A stretch of DNA of 64,000 nt from Odontesthes bonariensis (taxonomy: Eukaryota; Chordata; Actinopteri; Atheriniformes; Atherinopsidae): positions 5,901,501 to 5,965,500 of the forward strand of contig NC_134520.1 of NCBI RefSeq assembly GCF_027942865.1. The letters run 5' to 3'. Each line of letters opens with the position of its first letter. Position 1 is the first letter of the stretch. The translations under genes were made by a program, and so were the position numbers. The notes under the pieces were generated by a model that had not been told where the DNA came from, did not search any database, and saw nothing but the letters and a program-made list of their open reading frames with translations. Positions 43,232 to 58,200 of the stretch are shown here, one piece after another.

Positions 43232-46200
43232 TCACATGTCGAAGCGCTGGTTCCTGGATTGCACTGCCTTCTGCTCTCTCAGGTACATGTTGACATATGA
43301 GGTTATAAGATCATCCATCTTGTAACCCTTTTGAAATAATACAAAATGTTCAGAAAAGGAAACTGAAAGATTCCACTACTGTTATCAGAGAGTTTAACAC
43401 TTGTCTAGTGACAGCTTACCAGTGACGTTTCACACAGGAATTTGTTCCCCTTGACCAAGCTTCCAACAGTCATGTGAAAGTAGGTGCTTCCACTGCACCA
43501 ATTAGCAATGCGGTTGAATGGGTGATTGGCCAGAACCTCCTTATAAAAGGTAAAAAAAAAAAGAAAAGAAAAGTTAATTCTGTAAGGTTAAGAGTGAGAT
43601 TTTGATCTAAAGAAATATCAAATATTGCCAATTAACATTTTAAAAGACTGAAACCTTAGTTTTTGGGTGAATGATTGTAAGTCCTTGCTTGCTGACGGCT
43701 ATTTGCACGATATCTGGAAAGTTTCTCTCTGATGTTTGCTGAAAACAAAATTGGAGAAGCAAATGACAAAACAGTTCTCCGCTGCAGTTGTGACTATTTG
43801 CTTTTTCTGCTAAAAGTGCACCATGGTGACAGAGGCTGCGAGAGTCTAAGAGAGGATGAGAGCGTGAAATCAAAAATGCCGGTCATGAAAACTGATCAAA
43901 GATGGTGAGATTGATCACCGATGGTGCTGCACTCACTGCAGCGCTTACCTTCACTTCAAAGAAAGCACAGCCAAATGTCGGCCAACGGCAAACCACCTTC
44001 AGAAATGCCACCTTTGCTTCATCAACAGTCATACCACCATGTTTGTTGTAAGTGGCGACAATATTCTGAAAATATAAAAACACATATGTGTATATATGTA
44101 TACATGTGTATATATATATGTTGGAATTTCCCCTCGGGGATTAATAAAGTATAATTGATTGATTGATTGATTGATAAAAACCGTACCATACAACACTTTC
44201 ATTTTTAAAAAGTCTGCACCGCTTTTAATAAGGTCAATTATTTTTGTCCACCGCCCACCCAAAACCTTCAGGGTATGTTCTCACTGCACTGGGAGGGTCT
44301 ATAATGGTGCCATTGTTCATACAGTACAGGCAATTCAAAGGATGATTCTATATGATTTTTTTTTTTCAAACCCTAAAGAAATTCATTTGAAATATAAAAA
44401 TAAATCCAACATTTAATGTGATACATCTTATTCTTCTGTGCCACAGAGCCCCATTGTGGTCCACTGCAATGAATGACAAATTCCTTTACAAAAATAAACA
44501 CACACAGGGGTTCATTTAAAGTCACTTCACTACTTAATAGTATTAATCTGCAACCAAACAGCAGTAACTACAGTATTTTCAAGCTATTGAATATTATGGT
44601 GTACTTGTTTTATTTTCAACATACCCTTTCAGTACTTTGCCTTTGTTTTTTTTCCCATAAATAACGACACAGTGTAGTATGTCATGTGTTGTTCACAGAT
44701 TGGTTGTATTTATCTCATTTTAACTGCACAGATATTTTCTGCTCTGATATTTTGGTATCGACACGGAAAACCACTAGCAGTTTAAGTGAATTATATTATT
44801 GAAAATGGTAGCAGAGAGGTCTGATGCAGGAAAGTTTTGGGCCCTGGATAATTCAGATGTCACCTTTACAGGAATCCAACTGAATATTGTTCTCCACAAA
44901 GTACCTCCTTCCCCTTTCTATCTGAACTCTCAGATCCCCTATCTGATCAGGCAAATATGGGATGCAGCGGAACAAGCCGATTCATAGATGCTCCATCCCA
45001 AAAAGAATCTAGCGCCAAGTCCAAGGCACATGACACTGCAGGAAACCCCCCACAGATCAGAGCTGTACATCATATGGAAGCATCTTACAATATTAGACTG
45101 ATGTTTTCTAGATGGGTTGACATACAATTTGTAAAACATTTATGTTCCTTTCACATTCCCTTCGGCCAAAGCTGCACTCTGAGTTTTGTGCTAACTGGCA
45201 AACCATATCATGGTAAAATGTTAAACTAAGATGGTGAACTTTGTGCATGATAACCATAAAACATCCCCATTTAAAGATTGCCATTGGTTTAGCATGCAGA
45301 CATTAGCCCTTTAGTCAAAGAACTATGTAGTTCGAGCCTTACTGAGAGGCTTACAATAAGATTGAATATTAAGAGGGGATGAGGATGGCAAAAAGTATAA
45401 ATACTTGCATTGTTGATTTGGGTATTTCTGTGAGATTTATTGAAAATAAGAAAAAAGCTCTTGTACCTTTTTCCAGTCATTTTCAGACATGGCTTTCAGT
45501 GAGTCAGCAGGCACCAGCTCCTTCAGCGTCTTAGGAATTGTGACAAATTGGGTTTTGTCACTGCCCACCTTTACCCTGAAGAGTAGAGCTGCAATGTTCA
45601 CCATGTCCTCTTTAGAACAAACGTGATAGCCTCTCAGATACTTGGGCAACTCCTACAAGATATAATTAGGTTTGTTACTTGAAGCATTTTCAACAGATTG
45701 AAGTGTCACCATTAAACCAAATGATTGTCTTTGTAAGTTGTTCCCTGGTTGTTAAATAACTTTTTTGTTTGTGTGTCTGTTGTTGTCTGTTGGTAGGTCC
45801 TGGTCACCAACTTTTTCATCTGTAGCATTTCCACTGAACACAATGGGTACCATTGATACTATCTCATCTGTGTGCCAGGTAGGATTATGTGAATGGAGAT
45901 GGAAAAACAAAAACCAGTTAGGCTGGAAAATGTGAGCTGCTTATTTAAATGTACCTGAGGGAAATGGAAGATAAGATCAGCCTCTGTGTCTCTGCCAGGG
46001 ATCACATTGAACCACAACTTCCTCATGAAGAACACAAGGTAGGCAATGTTGACTGGCCCACCTGCAGGATACGCACAGACAGAGGATGTTACAGGGAAAT
46101 ATAGTAAAACCACCATAAGTCCCACTTTCTCTACAATCAAATGATGTGCCGTTACCATCTTTGATCCGCTTGACTTTCTTCGTCCAGTCAGTGATTTGTC

Positions 46201-49200
46201 TCAGACTGTCAAAGAAGTAGTCAGTCTCATTTAAACTGAGAACCTGAAATTACATAGGTAAAATTAGACAAAAAAAATTTTTTGGTCATAAAAGGGTGGA
46301 CGGTATTATTGGAGACAAAATTGAATAAAAATAAATAGATTCAAAATAACTTATTAAAAGATTGGAAAAGCGAACCTTGTCATGTGTTTTGACAAAAAGG
46401 CTGAAGCCGTCTGCTGAAAGCAACTGCAGCTTTTTGGAAACGGTCTGGATAAGATCCCTGATCCTGGTGTTGGTTGCCACCTCAAATACCTGGAGAGAGA
46501 TGAGAGGAATTATTGGTTTAACAAAAAGAATACTGGTCCTATGCAATGCACATAGTCCTACCTGTACCGTGTTTTTTTCACCCCCTGGAACTTTAAAAAA
46601 TAAAAGAGGCTCATGTTCGTACCTCATCTGAGTCATTGGGGAAGTGAATTTTGTGGAAGATCTTGGTGCTGTTTTGTTGGATGGCGTCTACCTCCACTTG
46701 GTGTGGTGGGAGCTTCCTGGGGTCCATCCTAGACCAGACCAGCAAATGCTTAGCAACATGCTATTTACATTATGCCTAATTTTAACTGATGATTTAACTG
46801 GCCAGAATTGCAAATGCACACTTCCACAGATGTTGGGTGTCCCATTAAGACACGTATTATGCCTGCCCACAGTCCCTTCTGCATTTCCAACCATGTGAAA
46901 AAAGAATGTACATCCTATTTCCATTCTAAGGTTTTACATATCAGGGCATCATGAAAACATTCATCTGCTTTTTTTTATTTAACAAAAACTAAGTCAAAAT
47001 GCAAAAATTACTGCCAAAGCAGTAAGTAAAAAAACTAATTACAGCCCATGATTCCATAATTTGTAGAACCACTTTCAGTAGCAATAATTTGAAGTAATCA
47101 TTTTCGATATGAAGTGACAAATGTTTCACATCTTTGTGGAGGAATTTTGTCCCACTCTTCTTTACAATGTTGCCTCAACTTATCCTGTCACAGCACCTAA
47201 ATCAGGTTGAGGTCTGGACTTTGGCTGGACCATTGCAACACCTTGATTCTTTTCTTTTTCAGACATTCTGTTGTAGATTTGCTGCTGTGTTTGGGATCAT
47301 TGTCCTGTTGAAGACCCAGTTTCAGCCAAGCTCTGGCTGTCAGACAGATGGCCTCACATTTGACTCTAGAATACTTTGGTATACAGAGGACTTCAAGGTG
47401 TCCAGGTCCTGTGGCTCCAAACAAGCCCAAACCATCAGCCCTCCAGCACCGTGCTTGATAGTTGGTATGAGGTATATGTGCTGATGTGCCGTGTTTGTCT
47501 TTTTTACCAAATGTGCTGCTGTGCATTATGACGAAACATCTCCACTTTGGTCTCATCTGTCCAAGACACATTGTTCCAGAAGTCTTGTGGTTTTTTTTTC
47601 TTGCTATGAACTTTAACATTTAACATGCTAACTTAGGCCTGTAGAGTCTGAGCTGTAACTGTAGGGTTTTTCAGTTTTTTTTTAGCTTTGTACAGTCTGA
47701 CTTTGGGGGACAACTTGCTGGTACATCCACTCCTGGGAAGATTTGGAACTATTTTCCACTTGTGAATAATCTTTTTATTTTCAGAATGATGAACTCCAAA
47801 TAATTTAGAAATGGCCTTATAATCCTTCCCAGATTGATGGGCAGCAACAATTGCTTCTCTAAGATCATTGCTGATGTATTTTATCCTTGACATTGTGTAA
47901 ACACAAACCCTACCGCTCCAAACCATCAAACTGACAAACCTGCCTTTATAGAGGCGCTGACATGTGCTGATGATCACTTAAGTGCATTTAGGTAGCAGCA
48001 CCTGGCTGCTACTTAGCCTCTCTATTGCATAGAAGCAGTATAAGTGTACATAGTAGTATTATGTCCCGACTAGTTAAATCTTAAAATTGGATGAGTGCTT
48101 AGTACTTTATCTCAGTGAAAAGATTCTTCACCTACAGGATGTGGACTTTTCTGAAGATAGTTTATAAAATTAATTGTTAGATGTCTGCTATTTTTGCTTA
48201 TTACTGAAATACTTCAATAAGAGAAAAGTCTCTTGGAGCCCGTTGTCATTACTTAAGGCAAATCCAATGCATTTATAGAAGTCATGCAAATACTAGGTGT
48301 TGTGGTCAGCCCACTGTGAAGCAGATGCAAACTTTTGTATGAAGAGCTCTGCTGTTACTGTGTTCATTGCTGCAAGCAAGTTCAGCCTCACACTGCACAA
48401 CTGGCCCTCAAAGAGAAATAGAAAAAGAAGTTCTTTATCTTTCAGAGATAAAATATGAGACACTGCAGCATGACATTTCCTCTTCTCACCACAGCATAGT
48501 GTCATGTTGTGTGATGGTGTCTGTTAACGAGTGAGGAGTTATGCAACGGTTGCTTGCATTTCTACTGGCCGCATTAGCTGCTCTTTAAATCGTCTGGCCC
48601 TCGAAGTTGTCAACACCCACACACACATTTATGTCTTGCATCCAACTTTTTTCTGCGTTGGTGATGTGTAATACAGCACAGCATGGCGGGTGAACCTGAG
48701 AGAGCTCTGCAGCCGCTTCAGGCAGTCGGAGGCGAGGGTTTCTCTGCGACGCGACTCCAGAAAGCGCTGAGCGTGCCTCAGAAGAGACTGGCCGGGAGGA
48801 AAGAGTCCACAGCAGAGCCACATCAGCTGCCAGCCCTGCTCAATGCTGAACCTGGGACAAAACAATGCACGTTCAAGAATGTGAGATCATTTGTTTTCTA
48901 ACTACTCTTGAATCAAAACATAGAATAGTTGTTTTTCAGCACTACCCCTGCAAAGAGCTTAAATGTAAAAATTTTGTTCAGGTTAAAGAAATAAAATTTA
49001 AATCCATTTTGGTTAAGAGGCTTGAATTACCAATATGTTGACATTTAAAACAGCCAGCACCATACAGATGTTTGGATGCATATACAAAGATAAATAAAGC
49101 AGCCTGAGGCAGCAGCTTACAATAAGAAGAATACCAGGTCTACCTGTTGTTGTTGCTGGTCATCTGCTTCATGATCTGGCAATAGATCTCATCCCTGAGT

Positions 49201-52200
49201 GCCTCATTTTCAGTGGCGGCGCCAAAGATCAGGTCGGTAAGCTCGAGAGCACTCTGCATCTGCCTGGTGGGGTAATCTCCCATATACTTCAGGATAGGTA
49301 CACAGTGGTCAAAGAGAAATAATGATAAGTGTTCTGCTTTTAAAAACTCTAAAAAAGAAAAGCGGATGTTTCTCAAAGAAAATGTGGCTACAGAGGGCTG
49401 AAGTTACTGATGATGTACGTAAATAGGAACTTCTGTCTCACTTTGGAGATGCATCTGTAATGCAACCGTAATCCCAGATTACTGTGTGTGTGTCCAGCCA
49501 GAACATCAGAAGCAATCTTCTTTTAAATGAATCGTGAATAAACAGGTTTGTAACACCAGAGGGCTTGTAAAGCCGATGAGAAATCGGACTTCCTGTTGCC
49601 ATTTTATTTGGATTTTTCAAGTCAGGTGTTGGAATTTAGATTTCCCATTAGTTATCAAATACAATATCAATAGGCACATAAAAGTGCAACAACAGATCCT
49701 GTGTTTACCAAAAATAACTGTAAACACCGGTGAAATGTGGTTCATATCAGCATTATTTCTTAATGTAAGCTTCTAAAAACAAAACGGAGGAATTGAGCTT
49801 GTATCCATTGGGAGGAATTAGGATGTCACTTGACGATATCGTAACTATTTGCAATATGATGCTTCACCAACTAGGGGCAGTTCAACGCATTACTCATGAT
49901 GACATTGTGCCTAAAATAGGGAGTACCAACTGTCCATGGCTTAACTGCAGACAAAGGAAATATGAGTATTTGAGAATAAAACTCCCTGCCAAGTATTTTT
50001 CTATCAGTTTGGTGTGTGGTAGTGGGAGCTCTCAGGGTAGGTTTTGTATGTTCTCTTAGTCATCAAGTGCTTCGAGAGTTATTGAGTGTAATTTGCATCC
50101 AAATTTATGTTTGCATGGTAGGACATATCTGCATCACCCCACAGAATAGAGAGGTGGAATGGAGTCGAGTGGCTCACTCCATGTTTTTTTTCTCAAATAT
50201 TTCTGTTAGATAAAGACCATCTTACTTTGGGATCACACCAGCCACAACCCAAAAAAACTGCTTTTACAACTGGAACTGATAACTTATATGTGGACTTACA
50301 AATACATTACAATAGCGAAAAAAAAGTGTGGTACAGGATCAAAAAGATGAAAGGGGGAATGGCTTCGTAGCTCCCCTACATCTGGAACACTTCACTCAGC
50401 ATACTTCACTGTAAACCTACCTATATCAAACCACACCTATTTTCTAACACCACCATCTTTGTGATCTCGACTACATCCCGTTCAGTTTCATGACAATATC
50501 TTGAATGTTTGTGAGTACTGTACTTTTTCCAGCAGGAGGCTCAAGGAACATATTGGGTCATGATGACACATTCCCCTCCACAAACACACACAAACAAAAG
50601 GTACAGAGAGTATTGCAGCAGGTCACCAGAAGAAACCCAAAGATGTGCTGTCAAAAAAACACACATAAACATAAAATTTCTATTTCAAGTGTGCATAGGA
50701 TATCAGTGAAGGCCTGACAGGCTTTGTGGCTGAGCTCTGGATTGCCCACCAGCTTCTTGAGGAGAGGCTGTCTGATTGGCTCTCTAGTGTGGGCCCACAG
50801 CCTCTCAGGAGCAGCATTCCGAGACATCACCTGCTGGTTCACATCCTTAGTCGGCTGCCTGTAGGATCAAGGAATATTGCTGCTGTCAGAAATCCTCCAC
50901 AGACCACTCCCTGCTGACCAGCTGGTAATAAAAAGCATGCAGGTTGTAGTCAAATGGAACCGATGTCTCACCTGAAATACTCGAGAGAGAACTCTTTGAG
51001 CGTGGCAGGAGCCAGCCTCTCCATTGTACCTGTTTCTTTCTGGTTTGCCTGTATGAAGTTCTTCCTCTGGTTTGGCGACAGTTTGAGGAGGCTCTGAAAA
51101 GAAGAAAAAATGTTTCATTCTTAACAGAACTAGGAGACAATAACTCATCTGAGAAAGATGTGTGATCAACAACTCCGTACCATGACCTCATTGGTGGGTT
51201 TGCTGAGTGTTGGCAGTATTAAGATGGCCTCAGTGGGGACTGCTCCTATTTTTCTGCTGCTGTCATTTTGACCCTTTAACCATCCACGCTGCTGAGAGAA
51301 CTCATTGTCTTTGATAAGTATAATGAGATCTCCTTTCTTGAAGCTGAGGAGTGTCGGGTCATCTGGAGAGGAGCACAAGACGTATAAATAAAGTCATAAA
51401 TAATAATAAGTTAGTTTGGAATATGGAATTAATTTCAAATGGATAACTCAGCATGTGAATTGAGGGGTCCGACCTTGACTGCTGACATCCCTCAGTGCCA
51501 CAGCATACTGAGAACGCTCTGACAGTCCACTGAGGAACATTGTAACCAGCTCGCTCAAGTCCTCAGCTGTCGATCCACTCAGGGTGAAGTCTCCTTTCAG
51601 TGTCAGTAGACAAACGGTCTGGCCAGATGCTTTACCATCCCTGAGTGACACAATATGGCTTTTAAAGGTTCAATCATTTTCCAAAAAAACTTTCTTCTTA
51701 CACTCCAATTCTAGTGGAAGCATCAGAAGTATCTTTACCTGACGAGGTTGACTCCAGTGACTTCTGGAAAGGAGAGTTCCAACAGTCTCTTCTCTCTTTC
51801 ATCCAGGAATGTGATTCCAGTCCAGTTTACGGCCACTATGAACTTGTTCTTTGGCAGTGAGGGACCTAAAAAACACAGCCATGGAGGAAACAAGCCCAAT
51901 AAATTCTGGCACATGGCAAACATAATGGGAATAATCAGACATTCTGTAGTCCTGTTCAGCATAGAAAGGTTGCATATCAGCTGCTGTCAATAGTCAGTCA
52001 ACAAACCAAGAGATTGATAAATTGTGTCAGCATCTTGTTGCGTTATTATTCGTTGACCACAAAGATGCAAAACTGAGCAAGTAAACTGTCTCTGAAGACT
52101 GTTACTCCTTGGTCAGGGTGGAGTCCAGTTGCCATGCATTGCACCCTTACAAACCCGCAGCCTAGCTATAATTGGCACAGAGAAAGCCCTTTGCCTTGAA

Positions 52201-55200
52201 AAAAAACCTTGTACTCTGATGCCAAAATTCTCCTCTATTGTTTTATACTAAAAACCACAGTGATACACAGTCATATTGTTGGGCCTGTCCCAATTTCTCC
52301 TCTCGGCCCTACCCCAAATCAGCTTTTGGCCCTTTTTTCCATTTAGGGATCAAGTGTGACGGTCATGTAGCTGTCCAAATGCCCCCCTACTCCTGTTGAG
52401 GAGCAATATGACAGCTACAGCTTGATCTGCATAAGAAAAGGGGCACATGCACCCTGCAAAACAGAGGGGTAGAGCCAACAGCCAGGGCCAAGTGAAGGAA
52501 CTGGGATTGAGCCTCGAGTTCTATTTGATCAAGCCTCTGATCCTCAGCAAATCAATCTGAGTGTTGTTTCAACTGAAATGACAAAACTCAACAAAATGTG
52601 ACTACTTTAACAAAAAGTACAGTGACACTAATTTCGAACAGTTTATTGATTTTCTTATTCTCAAATGAGAACATTTTCAGATTTAAATTAAATGATTCCA
52701 GATTCCCTGCTGTGTAGTCTCAGACCTCACTGTAAACAGAAATCTGTTGGTCAGTTTGTGCTGTCCATTAAAACCCCTTATGTAGGTTTGTTACATGCAA
52801 CTGTTTTGTTTTATGTTTTATGTAATCATTTTCCCATATGTCCTTTAGGACACCAAATCATCTGGCTATGATATAAATTGACAAGCAACAAAAAAACAAA
52901 AGAATTCTGCAACCAGACACCTACCTGACAGTTTGGCAACCTCAAAGAACCGGGAGAAGAACATGGGCCATTTTTCTCTGGCATAGTTGACTAACTCTGT
53001 CTTCACTGAGTCAACTTTTTGTCTTGAACTCAGAAAGGGGCCCTTGAGTGGTTTACAGAAAAGACAAAGAGTTAATTTGATTTTCTCAAAGCCTTATTCA
53101 AGCTTTTCTTGACGCTTTCCATGATATATGACTGACCTGAGCATGAGCAGTGCTGACCATTTGAACCCATTTGGCTTCTGACTTTGCTTCCAGTAAAGTG
53201 TTGGTGATGCATTCCTGCACAGCTTCTCTCACATTTTGTGGACTGGTGTCCGAGCCATGAAGGACGTACAAATGTTTTGCAGCAAGCTGAACGATGTCAT
53301 CCTCCTTTGAAACGTGGAACATGTGGAAAACAACAGTCAACTATGAGGCTAGAATGTTGTAGTTTGTTGCTTATAATTAACACGAGCCCACCTTCTGAGT
53401 CTGGTACTCTCCAAACTTCAGACCATGGATGATTTGTCTGTAGATTAGGTCTGTGCTGATCTGGTCCTCTTTGCAGTCATGCCAGGGGGTGAAGACCTCC
53501 TTGCGGAGGAAGAGACGCCACGGAGCGTGCTGCTCCTGGCTTCCCTTCCTCTTCACTTCCTGCTCACACTGGGAGATGGCATCCATCACATGCTCCCGGC
53601 CGCTACCCAGAGCCCACACCTTCAACAAAGACCAACAATTTAAGATGTTAGCCTCTTATGTTAGCCTAATATATATATTAACAAGCCCAAAGGCACAAGC
53701 TCATCTCAAGCTTAAAAGTGGGGCATACATTTGGAGTCTTTTGGAAAAAGGAATGTTGTTCTCTCTATCAATTTGTCTAATTTAGTTTTTTCTTTTAGAA
53801 ATTGAATGAGACAGTTTCACAAAGAGTTACAAAGAAACTGCGAGACACATTTATCATATGATTACCACTTTGTACCTTTTCATACATGGCTACATAGAGA
53901 GAAAAGCCAAAGGTGTCTTTGAGTTTGACTTTGTTTGAGACGAGTTGGCAGATCTCTTTGGATGTAGATGCAGAGTCGACAGGAAGGTTAATGGAGCGAC
54001 CATCCATCAGTGCCAGAGACACCATCATAGGCTTTTTGGTCTTGGTTGCCTATCACAATGCAGAGAAATGAGAAAAAAATAAATAAATAAAAAAAGTTTA
54101 GGTTAACTTATCCAGATTCTAATGCAGAATAGTGAAATAATTAGTTAATCGTTCATTGAATAATGCTCAAAAAGTCACTCTGAGCTTTGATCACCAAATG
54201 CTAATCAGTTCAGCAACAAAAAATTTCCAAAACATTCTTTTTAGGGGCTATTGAGTGCAGATAGTCAAGTGAAAAACTAAGTATCCCCCATGATTCAATA
54301 GCTTGGACAACCATCTTAAGCAGCAATAATTTGATCAGTCCCTCAAATTGTTGTGGAGGACTTTTGGTCAATTCTTCTTTACAATGTTGCTTCAGCTCAA
54401 TGTTGCTTCACCCAGGTTGTCTGGACTTTGACTGGATCATTATCATAGCTTGAATCATTTTTTTCCTTTTTTAAGTAATTCTGATGTAGATGTTCTGCTG
54501 TGTTTGGGATCATTGGGCCTCATGCAAGAACATTTTTTGTTTTTGTTTGTAAGTTTGTATTTTTATTCTAAATTTCTCTCACTTTTTTCGTACAAAGGTC
54601 TCATATGAACACGCCACGTCAGATTCAACAAACGCTCTTAACTTTGGAAAAAGTGTGTAAACGACCTGCGTAAATGATGAATGCCACCCGTGCGTATTTA
54701 AGTGCATGTGCACCAGGATAGTAAATTTGCATACTCCACGCCCAAAATAATACCATATAAGGCTGTGCTTTCTCTCCTGTGCCAGGGAGTGTTGAGTGTT
54801 GAGTCATGAGAATGGCATCAAGGTGCAAAAACGGGTTCTGAGATTGAAGTTCTGCTTTCAGGTCCAAAAAGGAAAATCTGTCATTTTTGGCTGTGTCAGC
54901 AGTGGAATTACGGGATTTGTTAAAGCGAAGAAATGGGAAGCAATTACGAGTGCTGTTAATTCCTTGTCACCTGTAGTTCGTAATGTCACAGAAATAAAGA
55001 AGAAATGGTTTGAATTGAAAATGGCTTAAAAATGCGCTCGATGACTGCAACTAAAGCCATGCAGTCAGTTGTTGCCTCATCATGATGGCACTTTGATGGG
55101 ACAGTGCATGAGGGGGGTCTTCTGGCACCACACCTTCTGGTCTGCCTGGGCTGGTTCAGTTAGTGGGAGACCCTCGTTCATGGAAATATTGAGCAAAACG

Positions 55201-58200
55201 CAGCATGCCAGAATAATCTGGCATGCCTTAACTGGGCTATAGAGCAGTTTGTCTCCGCAAGGATATCTACACGGTCTCTTCCAAGAGCCTGAGGCATCCA
55301 AAAGTAGCAAGTCAGCTGCTGGTTATACTTCCCATTGACCTTGTTATATACAGTCAAATTAACCTTCAATTAGTGTATAATTTAAGTCCAACAGAATAAT
55401 GTCAGCATAATTCTGGGGTATATTGTATATACTTATTTATGTTTGCTTCAAAGTAATTTAATATACAATCCATTAGTCAAGCAAACTTGATTCGAATAAC
55501 AGCGGACTATTTTACGAAACTCCTACGACAGGTCTGGATCACTCGTAAATTCTGTTCGTACCTGAAAGAAAACGTAAAATAGGAAAAAATTGGTGAATGC
55601 GCAAATTCTCTTAAATCACTCGTACGCACGACTTAAGAACAAATCTGTTCGTACGAACGGTTGTTGCATGAGGCCCATTGACTCCAGGTCCTGTGGCTGC
55701 AGAACAAGCTCAAATCATCTGTGATTGGTCAAGCTGTGTTTGGTTTTATCCAAACGTGCTGCTGTTTATATAACCAAACTTTTTTACTTTGGTGTCTTCT
55801 GTCCAAAGGACATTGTTCCAGAAATCTTGTGGTTTCCTTTATATATAAATAATTGCTACACAGTGTAATATGTCATGTACTGTAGTTCATCTGATTCACT
55901 TAATTTTGGTAACCAGGTTATCTTTCATAATGTCCTGATACGGAAAACCTTAAAATTAAAAGGTCTACTTTATTTTTCACATGACTGAAGATGAATTCTG
56001 AATCGACTGCAGATAATTTCATGTCACTGTCATACTTGTAGCTCCAGCCAGGCGGGAGGCTCCCCCCTTTCTCCGTTTATGACGGTGCGCCGTAGCCTTT
56101 CACCACAGTATGATGCGTAGCCTCCCGGAGCCGAACGGATGAAACTTTGGAGGTACTGCAAAGATGAAAAATAATAGGGGATCAATGAAACCTCACAGCA
56201 CACAGTTTATGACACTGAGGTTGACATTTGACTTACCCTTATAAAGCGCTCACTGGGAGAGAAAATGCCCAAACACAGTGACAGCAGGATCCAACCGCGG
56301 AGGCAGCTGTTGTGATTGTTGTTATCCTGAAGCTGCTTGCAGATTTGACAGTAAATCTCATCCCTGTGTAGATAACGCTGTATTAGCCAGGAAACTTACA
56401 GCAGAAATACATTATTTCAAAATGAAACATTATCAACCTGAGGTCACGTCTGATAATGCCATATGACACAATGATGTGGAGTTTTTCAAGGGATGTCAGG
56501 GGCCTGTCCAAGGTGGGCCCTTCTTCAATCATGACATCACTGTCCTCCCTCAAAGTCTGCAGAGTGGTGGGCTTGGACACTTCAGTTAGATCATCTGACT
56601 GTAAGAAAAAATATGAAATGCCCATCAGTGTGTGGACAGCAACATCAAGTTGAAATATTGTTAAGAATTCCACCTCACCTCCTCCATGATGATGGAGGGC
56701 TTCCTGAGGCTTGAAGTGGATTTTGGCGGTCCATTTTCTTGAACAGTGGGTGCTTTTTTGTTCCTTGACATCATGTCAGTGAACGTTGATCCCTTCCTTG
56801 CTCGAGGGTTAGCTTCTGGTACAGTGTACACCCTCGGGTTCTGAGCTGTCTCGCTGGGCATGGCAGAAGCCTTTCTGTTCTTTGTTAAAAGGTCTGTGAA
56901 AACAGAGGTCTTTCGCTTTTGTGTTGAGTCCTCGGGCACGTTGGCAGGCTGGGGTTCTTTTTTATTCCTTAGCATCCTCTTAAACAAGAAGACATTTAAA
57001 GATGCAGGATGGATTTATATTAATTTTTAAAAAACGAGTTAAAATTCTAAATTTGTCACCATCCTGTGAGGATACATACCTGATCAAGGCCCACCATGTT
57101 GCTTAGACGTCTGTCTTTTCTGGATATCAAGTCCTGTGCCAGAAATCGTTCCTGTCCGCGGTTTCCTGGAACTCTCGTTTGTTTCTTTGGCTCAGGGAGA
57201 TCTCCCATGAATCTCAGAATGATCCACCACACTGTTAGCGAAGCCTGTTGAAAACACAACAGAAAAGTCCCAGTGATGAAAAGGGGAGAAAAAAACTGTT
57301 GGAATAACTGTAGAATCTACGGTGATCTAAGAGAAGCACCAGAGCATCTCCCTCATCTTCACAGAAGAGCAGTGGCTGTCGGAGCCTCTCACGGGTGTGG
57401 GAGGGGGTGGCTGCACCTTGGAAGTACATTGAGGCAAATTTGGAGAAGGTGTACTCATCCAGGTCGTCGTAGTCTTCTTCAGGAAGATCTTCCACCATGG
57501 GATAGTCATCAATGTCTATCTCCTCAATAATGGTCCGTTTACCCTCAATATTCTACAAACATATACAGATGGTTTTAATTATACTAACACACTTTTATCC
57601 AATAATCCTACAAAACATGCCAAACTATTACCAAACCTCAAATCCCACTGGTGCCTGCCCTTCCTGCCCTCCAATAATAGTGGGAAGGAAGCCAAAAACG
57701 TCGTCCACCATCTCCACGTCACTTCTGGATTCAAACTGTGCTTTGTCCTCCATCTCTCTCTTTTTCCTCAACACTTCTTCCAGGTGTTTCTGTTTCTCCA
57801 AAAGGGCTTGCCGCTCTTCCTCTCTCTCTTTAGCAGAGAGGTATATCTGAAAGAACACAACACACCAAGAAGAAGAATTAATAAGAAGAATCATCAGTAT
57901 TAACCATGCAATGAATGACTAAAATAATACAAAATGTATATTTTTATAACATTTATAACTGGCATCAGAGCAGTTTAGGGTTCTACGTCCGGCTCACAAG
58001 CATCCTGGCAGGGGTTACAAACAGTGGACTACCACTGCAGTGCCTGCTTCTGTTGCAAGGAATTTATTTGAAAAATACCTGATTATCAAAGAAAGAAATT
58101 ATTTTATTTTATGTAGTCACTTATCAAAACATGTTTTATACTGATATAATGTACATGACTTAGCTTCCGTAGCCCACATCACTGCTTAGTGTAAGTGTGG

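Follow-up and report, generated by a model that had tools for sequence, protein, structure and literature searches.

A predicted U12-type AT-AC intron in the second MyTH4 region of a fish myosin-VII gene

Introduction

The 64 kb stretch of DNA analysed here (the window) carries on its minus strand a gene in which two adjoining exons appear to be separated by an intron that begins with AT and ends with AC. This raises the questions of whether such an intron is real, which spliceosome would remove it, and how old it is. The initial annotation had placed an AT-AC intron with U12-type signals at 49298..50703, within a gene that it named myo7b. Among the vertebrate minor introns described in PMC6865273 are those of the voltage-gated sodium/calcium channel, matrilin, E2F and MAPK families, and according to the same source minor introns tend to be abundant in families that descend from a single ancestral gene with such an intron. 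About 700–800 human genes have minor introns (PMC6558932).

Results

Position and signals of the intron

Read on the minus strand, the intron 50703..49298 begins with ATATCCTATG and finishes with TCTTTGAC-CACTGTGTAC, and its 3' end, TCTTTGACCACTGTGTAC, lies directly before exon sequence CTATCCTGAAG at 49297 (Table 1). The U12 consensus is ATATCCTTT at the donor and TCCTTRAY at the branch site, with the branch 9–20 nt from the 3' end, and the window copy departs from it at donor position +8 and at one branch position. The coordinates and the U12 signals of the initial annotation are thereby recovered. When 50704 is joined to 49297, one open frame runs through the MyTH4 motif, and the resulting protein aligns without a gap across the junction with the crystal-structure chains of MYO7A (5mv9) and MYO7B (5xbf, 5mv7 and 5mv8), which we take to be the human proteins; AT-AC splicing thus does restore the conserved sequence, as had been claimed. 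The open frame of 1839 residues described earlier holds over the two MyTH4-FERM regions, at approximately 57.3–43.3 kb, which is the scope of our check.

Table 1. Features of the AT-AC intron and of the control regions in the window
Feature	Position	Strand	Description	Basis
Upstream coding exon, start of second MyTH4 region	50704..50858	-	3' end ...GCCTTCACTG; exon start placed by eye	Open frame; ungapped MYO7A/MYO7B alignment
5' splice site ATATCCTATG	50694..50703	-	8/9 to ATATCCTTT	
AT-AC intron	49298..50703	-	Phase 1, 1406 nt	Equal-cost spliced alignment; same intron in three paralogues
Branch-site-like TCTTTGAC	49308..49315	-	7/8 to TCCTTRAY; branch A at 49309, 11 nt before last intron base	
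3' splice site AC	49298..49299	-		Sequence; spliced alignment
Downstream coding exon	49144..49297	-	Starts CTATCCTGAAGTATATGGGAGAT	Homology; spliced alignment; Pfam MyTH4, 36.4 bits
Remaining C-terminal MyTH4-FERM region (control)	43328..49143	-	Ten introns, all GT-AG	
First MyTH4-FERM region (control)	51641..57339	-	Nine of ten introns GT-AG, one ambiguous linker intron	

Identity of the host gene

Joined by hand, the exons of the second MyTH4-FERM region match the structures 5mv7, 5mv8, 5mv9 and 5xbf (8.3e-157 to 7.2e-155), and those of the first match 3pvl (2.2e-163) and 5f3y (3.1e-147). With both of its MyTH4-FERM tandems matching MYO7 structures, the gene is, as judged from its predicted protein, a myosin VII. 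The second region scores 525.8 bits with MYO7B and 519.4 with MYO7A, while the first scores 547.5 bits with MYO7A and 494.2 with MYO7B, and over the compared stretch the window copy is 59% identical to MYO7A and 57% to MYO7B. For two of the three paralogues described below, identity to human MYO7A across the region compared is 78% (contig C14) and 85% (C21); the window copy and the third paralogue, on C19, share 68% identity with one another and 57–59% with either human protein. Because of this distribution of identities we regard the window gene as probably myo7b-like, by elimination rather than by direct proof, so that of the name myo7b the assignment to myosin VII stands and the choice of 7B over 7A depends on elimination.

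The second intron downstream of the AT-AC one (48695..46729) holds a remnant of a Tc1/mariner-type transposase at 47977-47200 on the minus strand, of which the frame 47977-47636 matches the Pfam Sleeping Beauty HTH family (E 3.2e-13). A search of the 64 kb window against Rfam gave no match.

Alternatives to the AT-AC junction

To place the junctions we used a spliced alignment in which GT-AG, GC-AG and AT-AC introns carry equal cost and no splice-site model is applied. Across the C-terminal MyTH4-FERM this yields 11 introns, of which 10 are GT-AG and one, 50703..49298, is AT-AC; when AT-AC is forbidden, the score falls from 1261 to 1235 (26 points) and a poor GC-AG junction is taken instead. 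A second AT-AC call, at 57077..56567 in the first MyTH4-FERM region, was judged to be false, as it lies in a poorly conserved linker, with its donor 2 nt inside CAG|GTATGT, and scores 1190 as AT-AC versus 1185 as GT-AG (5 points). Equal-cost alignment alone is therefore no proof of an AT-AC intron.

For GT-AG and GC-AG alternatives, the search for donors began 140 nt before the exon end and reached 300 nt into the intron, while that for acceptors began 300 nt before the intron end and reached 140 nt into the following exon. The best of 181 open-frame pairs scores 245/249 against the two references, versus 272/276 for AT-AC, and would add approximately 16 residues; all 181 score below AT-AC. 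The initial annotation had also named an alternative exon for the AFxAxLK segment as a finding that would overturn its reading, and within the intron we find no sequence resembling the start of the downstream exon (best score 10, compared with a self-score of 90).

The donor and branch motifs on their own are not rare in the window. On the minus strand of the 64 kb there are 12 AT donors of at least 8/9, compared with 8.2 in simulated sequence (first-order, 30 simulations); AC ends whose branch reaches 7/8 or better number 59, compared with 64.8. The chance that a donor and an AC end with its branch would both fall on the junction that is set by homology is approximately 12/64000 x 59/64000, or near 2e-7. 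The coincidence of the motifs with the junction demanded by homology exceeds chance, and it recurs in three paralogues.

Scoring for U12 likeness, which the initial annotation had recommended, was applied to 20 of the 21 introns returned for the two MyTH4-FERM regions of the window gene, the ambiguous 57077..56567 being left out. The intron 50703..49298 ranks first on both signals (donor 8/9, branch 7/8), with the other 19 reaching at most 6 on either. The window gene also has an intron in its first MyTH4, which is GT-AG and situated at a different residue. A search of the whole genome with a perfect-consensus donor pattern found 15 places, 11 of which share the same 24 bases, and was uninformative. 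These 11 matches to ATATCCTTTAAC-N10-AC carry the identical sequence ATATCCTTTAACTTTAGATAAAAC, are located on contigs C1, C4, C6, C7, C12, C13, C23, C26 and C28, and probably represent a single dispersed repeat.

The same intron in the myo7 paralogues

Searched at the protein level, the same genome (945 Mb, 187 contigs) gave 12 matches, and the exon pair is present in three further genes, on C19, C14 and C21, split at the identical residue. The C19 junction reads ATATCCTTTT...TGCTTGACCATGGCTGCCAC (donor 9/9, branch 7/8, branch A 13 nt before the last base), that of C14 reads ATATCCTTCA...TTCTTTGACATTGATCCTAC (8/9 and 7/8, 12 nt), and that of C21 reads ATATCCTTTG...GTCCTTGACCGTGTCTGCAC (9/9 and 8/8, 12 nt). 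All four myo7-type genes found have an ATATCCT donor, and in 4/4 the equal-cost alignment returns an AT-AC intron in phase 1 at the same residue. Forbidding AT-AC in this paralogue comparison costs 33, 47, 31 and 79 points for the window, C19, C14 and C21 respectively. A further match, C4:33713079 (E 2.63), was set aside as being at chance level and having stops in the surrounding frame.

The introns of the window, C19, C14 and C21 copies are 1406, 273, 1521 and 3217 nt long respectively, and in none of the 6 pairs among the four genes do the interiors match at E<0.01, such that only the intron ends have been kept. As all four of the myo7-type genes that we found in this fish have the AT-AC intron, it predates the separation of MYO7A and MYO7B. 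Within the C14 intron (L022, positions ~950-1450) there are frames that by eye resemble pieces of a Tc1-like transposase; a single short fragment of these, compared with Pfam, had no match.

The corresponding site in other MyTH4 genes

Across the genome, the Pfam MyTH4 family gave 47 matches, many of them weak, and 14 surrounding stretches plus one more were examined. Three genes on C26, C28 and C4 (L071, L067 and L072), presumably MYO15-like from their two-MyTH4 domain layout, have an intron at the MYO7 site, at the same residue and in phase 1. With the junctions placed by eye, the splits are ATDIFL-A|IMKFMGDFP, SVQCFM-N|VIQFMADLP and AADLFL-S|IMRFMGDSP respectively (the dash indicates the split codon). 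These introns are nevertheless GT-AG and differ from those of MYO7 in type, as their donors, GTAAGAG, GTGAGTT and GTAAGTT, are of the U2 type and have 3–5 of 9 positions in common with the U12 donor.

Two genes on C2 and C22 (L069 and L068), which we take to be PLEKHH-like, have GT-AG introns beside the MYO7 site with donors GTATTTGCA and GTCCCTCTC. These split the protein at LFK|TCQLF and LFK|SCQLF and, unlike the MYO7 intron, are in phase 0; by ungapped alignment they fall within about a nucleotide or one residue of the MYO7 site, and in this phase they are not at the identical place. No intron is present at the MYO7 site in three exons that we take to be MYO10-like and one taken to be ARHGAP39-like; C20:222026 and C22:19530700 were unreadable at the site.

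Discussion

Because the junction, the signals and their recurrence in the paralogues agree, the U12-type reading offered by the initial annotation is supported at the level of sequence comparison. The intron is real, old and conserved, a well-founded case of a conserved minor intron in a myosin family, and ordinary in kind. The second MyTH4 of this myosin-VII gene almost certainly contains a U12-type (minor-spliceosome) AT-AC intron that was present before MYO7A and MYO7B separated and has been retained.

The history of the site beyond that separation is a more tentative matter. The simplest history would be that a single ancestral minor intron has persisted in MYO7 and has changed to the major type in MYO15; it is quite possible, if somewhat short of an even chance, that the minor intron predates the MYO7/MYO15 split, became major in MYO15, and has stayed AT-AC in every MYO7 copy examined. 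The direction of the conversion is something we infer, and the U2-type intron that the MYO15-like genes have at this site fits a change from minor to major; intron type conversion is assumed to proceed almost exclusively in that direction (PMC10639083). The intron could instead be U12-type with another history, having been inserted separately in MYO7 and MYO15, or having changed from major to minor in MYO7. The adjacent phase-0 GT-AG introns in the two PLEKHH-like genes hint at recurrent insertion near this site, which makes separate gain a little more likely and slightly lowers the probability of an ancestral minor intron, and the MYO10-like and ARHGAP39-like exons that are intronless there point the same way. 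Against this, the residue and phase 1 are the same in 7/7 of the MYO7- and MYO15-like genes read, and conversion from major to minor would run counter to the near-exclusive direction just cited. We consider separate insertion or reverse conversion unlikely, notwithstanding the PLEKHH-like introns.

With regard to type, U2-type AT-AC introns exist, and this one might have AT-AC ends and yet be removed by the major spliceosome; terminal dinucleotides alone are indecisive, and the window donor is off consensus at +8. However, the donors in all four paralogues are ATATCCT rather than ATAAGT-like, with a U12-like branch in every case 11–13 nt before the last base, making a U2-type intron very improbable. 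A broken gene, an assembly error or the use of an undetected GT-AG junction or exon is barely credible given the lower scores of the best GT/GC-AG pair, an intron with no alternative exon, downstream hand-joined exons that match MYO7B across the remaining C-terminal MyTH4-FERM (8.3e-157), and an arrangement repeated in three paralogues.

If the minor spliceosome does act on intron 50703..49298, as the U12-type reading predicts, then by the generally known steps of the pathway U11 and U12 would bind ATATCCTATG and the branch site CTTTGAC, respectively. U6atac would displace U11 from the donor and, with the branch A located 11 nt upstream of the terminal C, 50704 would be joined to 49297.

The intron resembles vertebrate U12 AT-AC introns in its ends, in its ATATCCT donor and in a CTTGAC-like branch near the 3' end, as well as in being a single minor intron among GT-AG introns, common to paralogues and not in phase 0. 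It differs from the listed families with such introns in that its host is a myosin VII. A literature search, with genome-wide intron databases outside its scope, found no paper on a minor intron in MYO7 genes in the text available to it, and we expect that the intron of the human orthologue is already in intron databases. Myo10, likewise a MyTH4-FERM myosin gene, is reported to have a minor intron (PMC6558932). That intron probably differs from the MYO7 one, as at the MYO7 site no intron interrupts any of the three MYO10-like MyTH4 exons read in this fish.

The most useful addition made here is the contrast between MYO7 and the MYO15-like genes at one site, minor in the former and major in the latter, which provides a natural pair for the study of type conversion. 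Myosin VII is important for hearing and for the gut brush border, and the U12-type reading predicts that myosin-VII transcripts are sensitive to defects of the minor spliceosome. If the minor intron does predate the MYO7/MYO15 split, then the myosin VII mRNAs of hair cells and brush border would be limited by minor-spliceosome capacity, a limit from which MYO15, a neighbour in function, has escaped. Such a limit could bear on the need for rnpc3, a minor-spliceosome gene that zebrafish reportedly require for hair-cell regeneration (PMC9604452).
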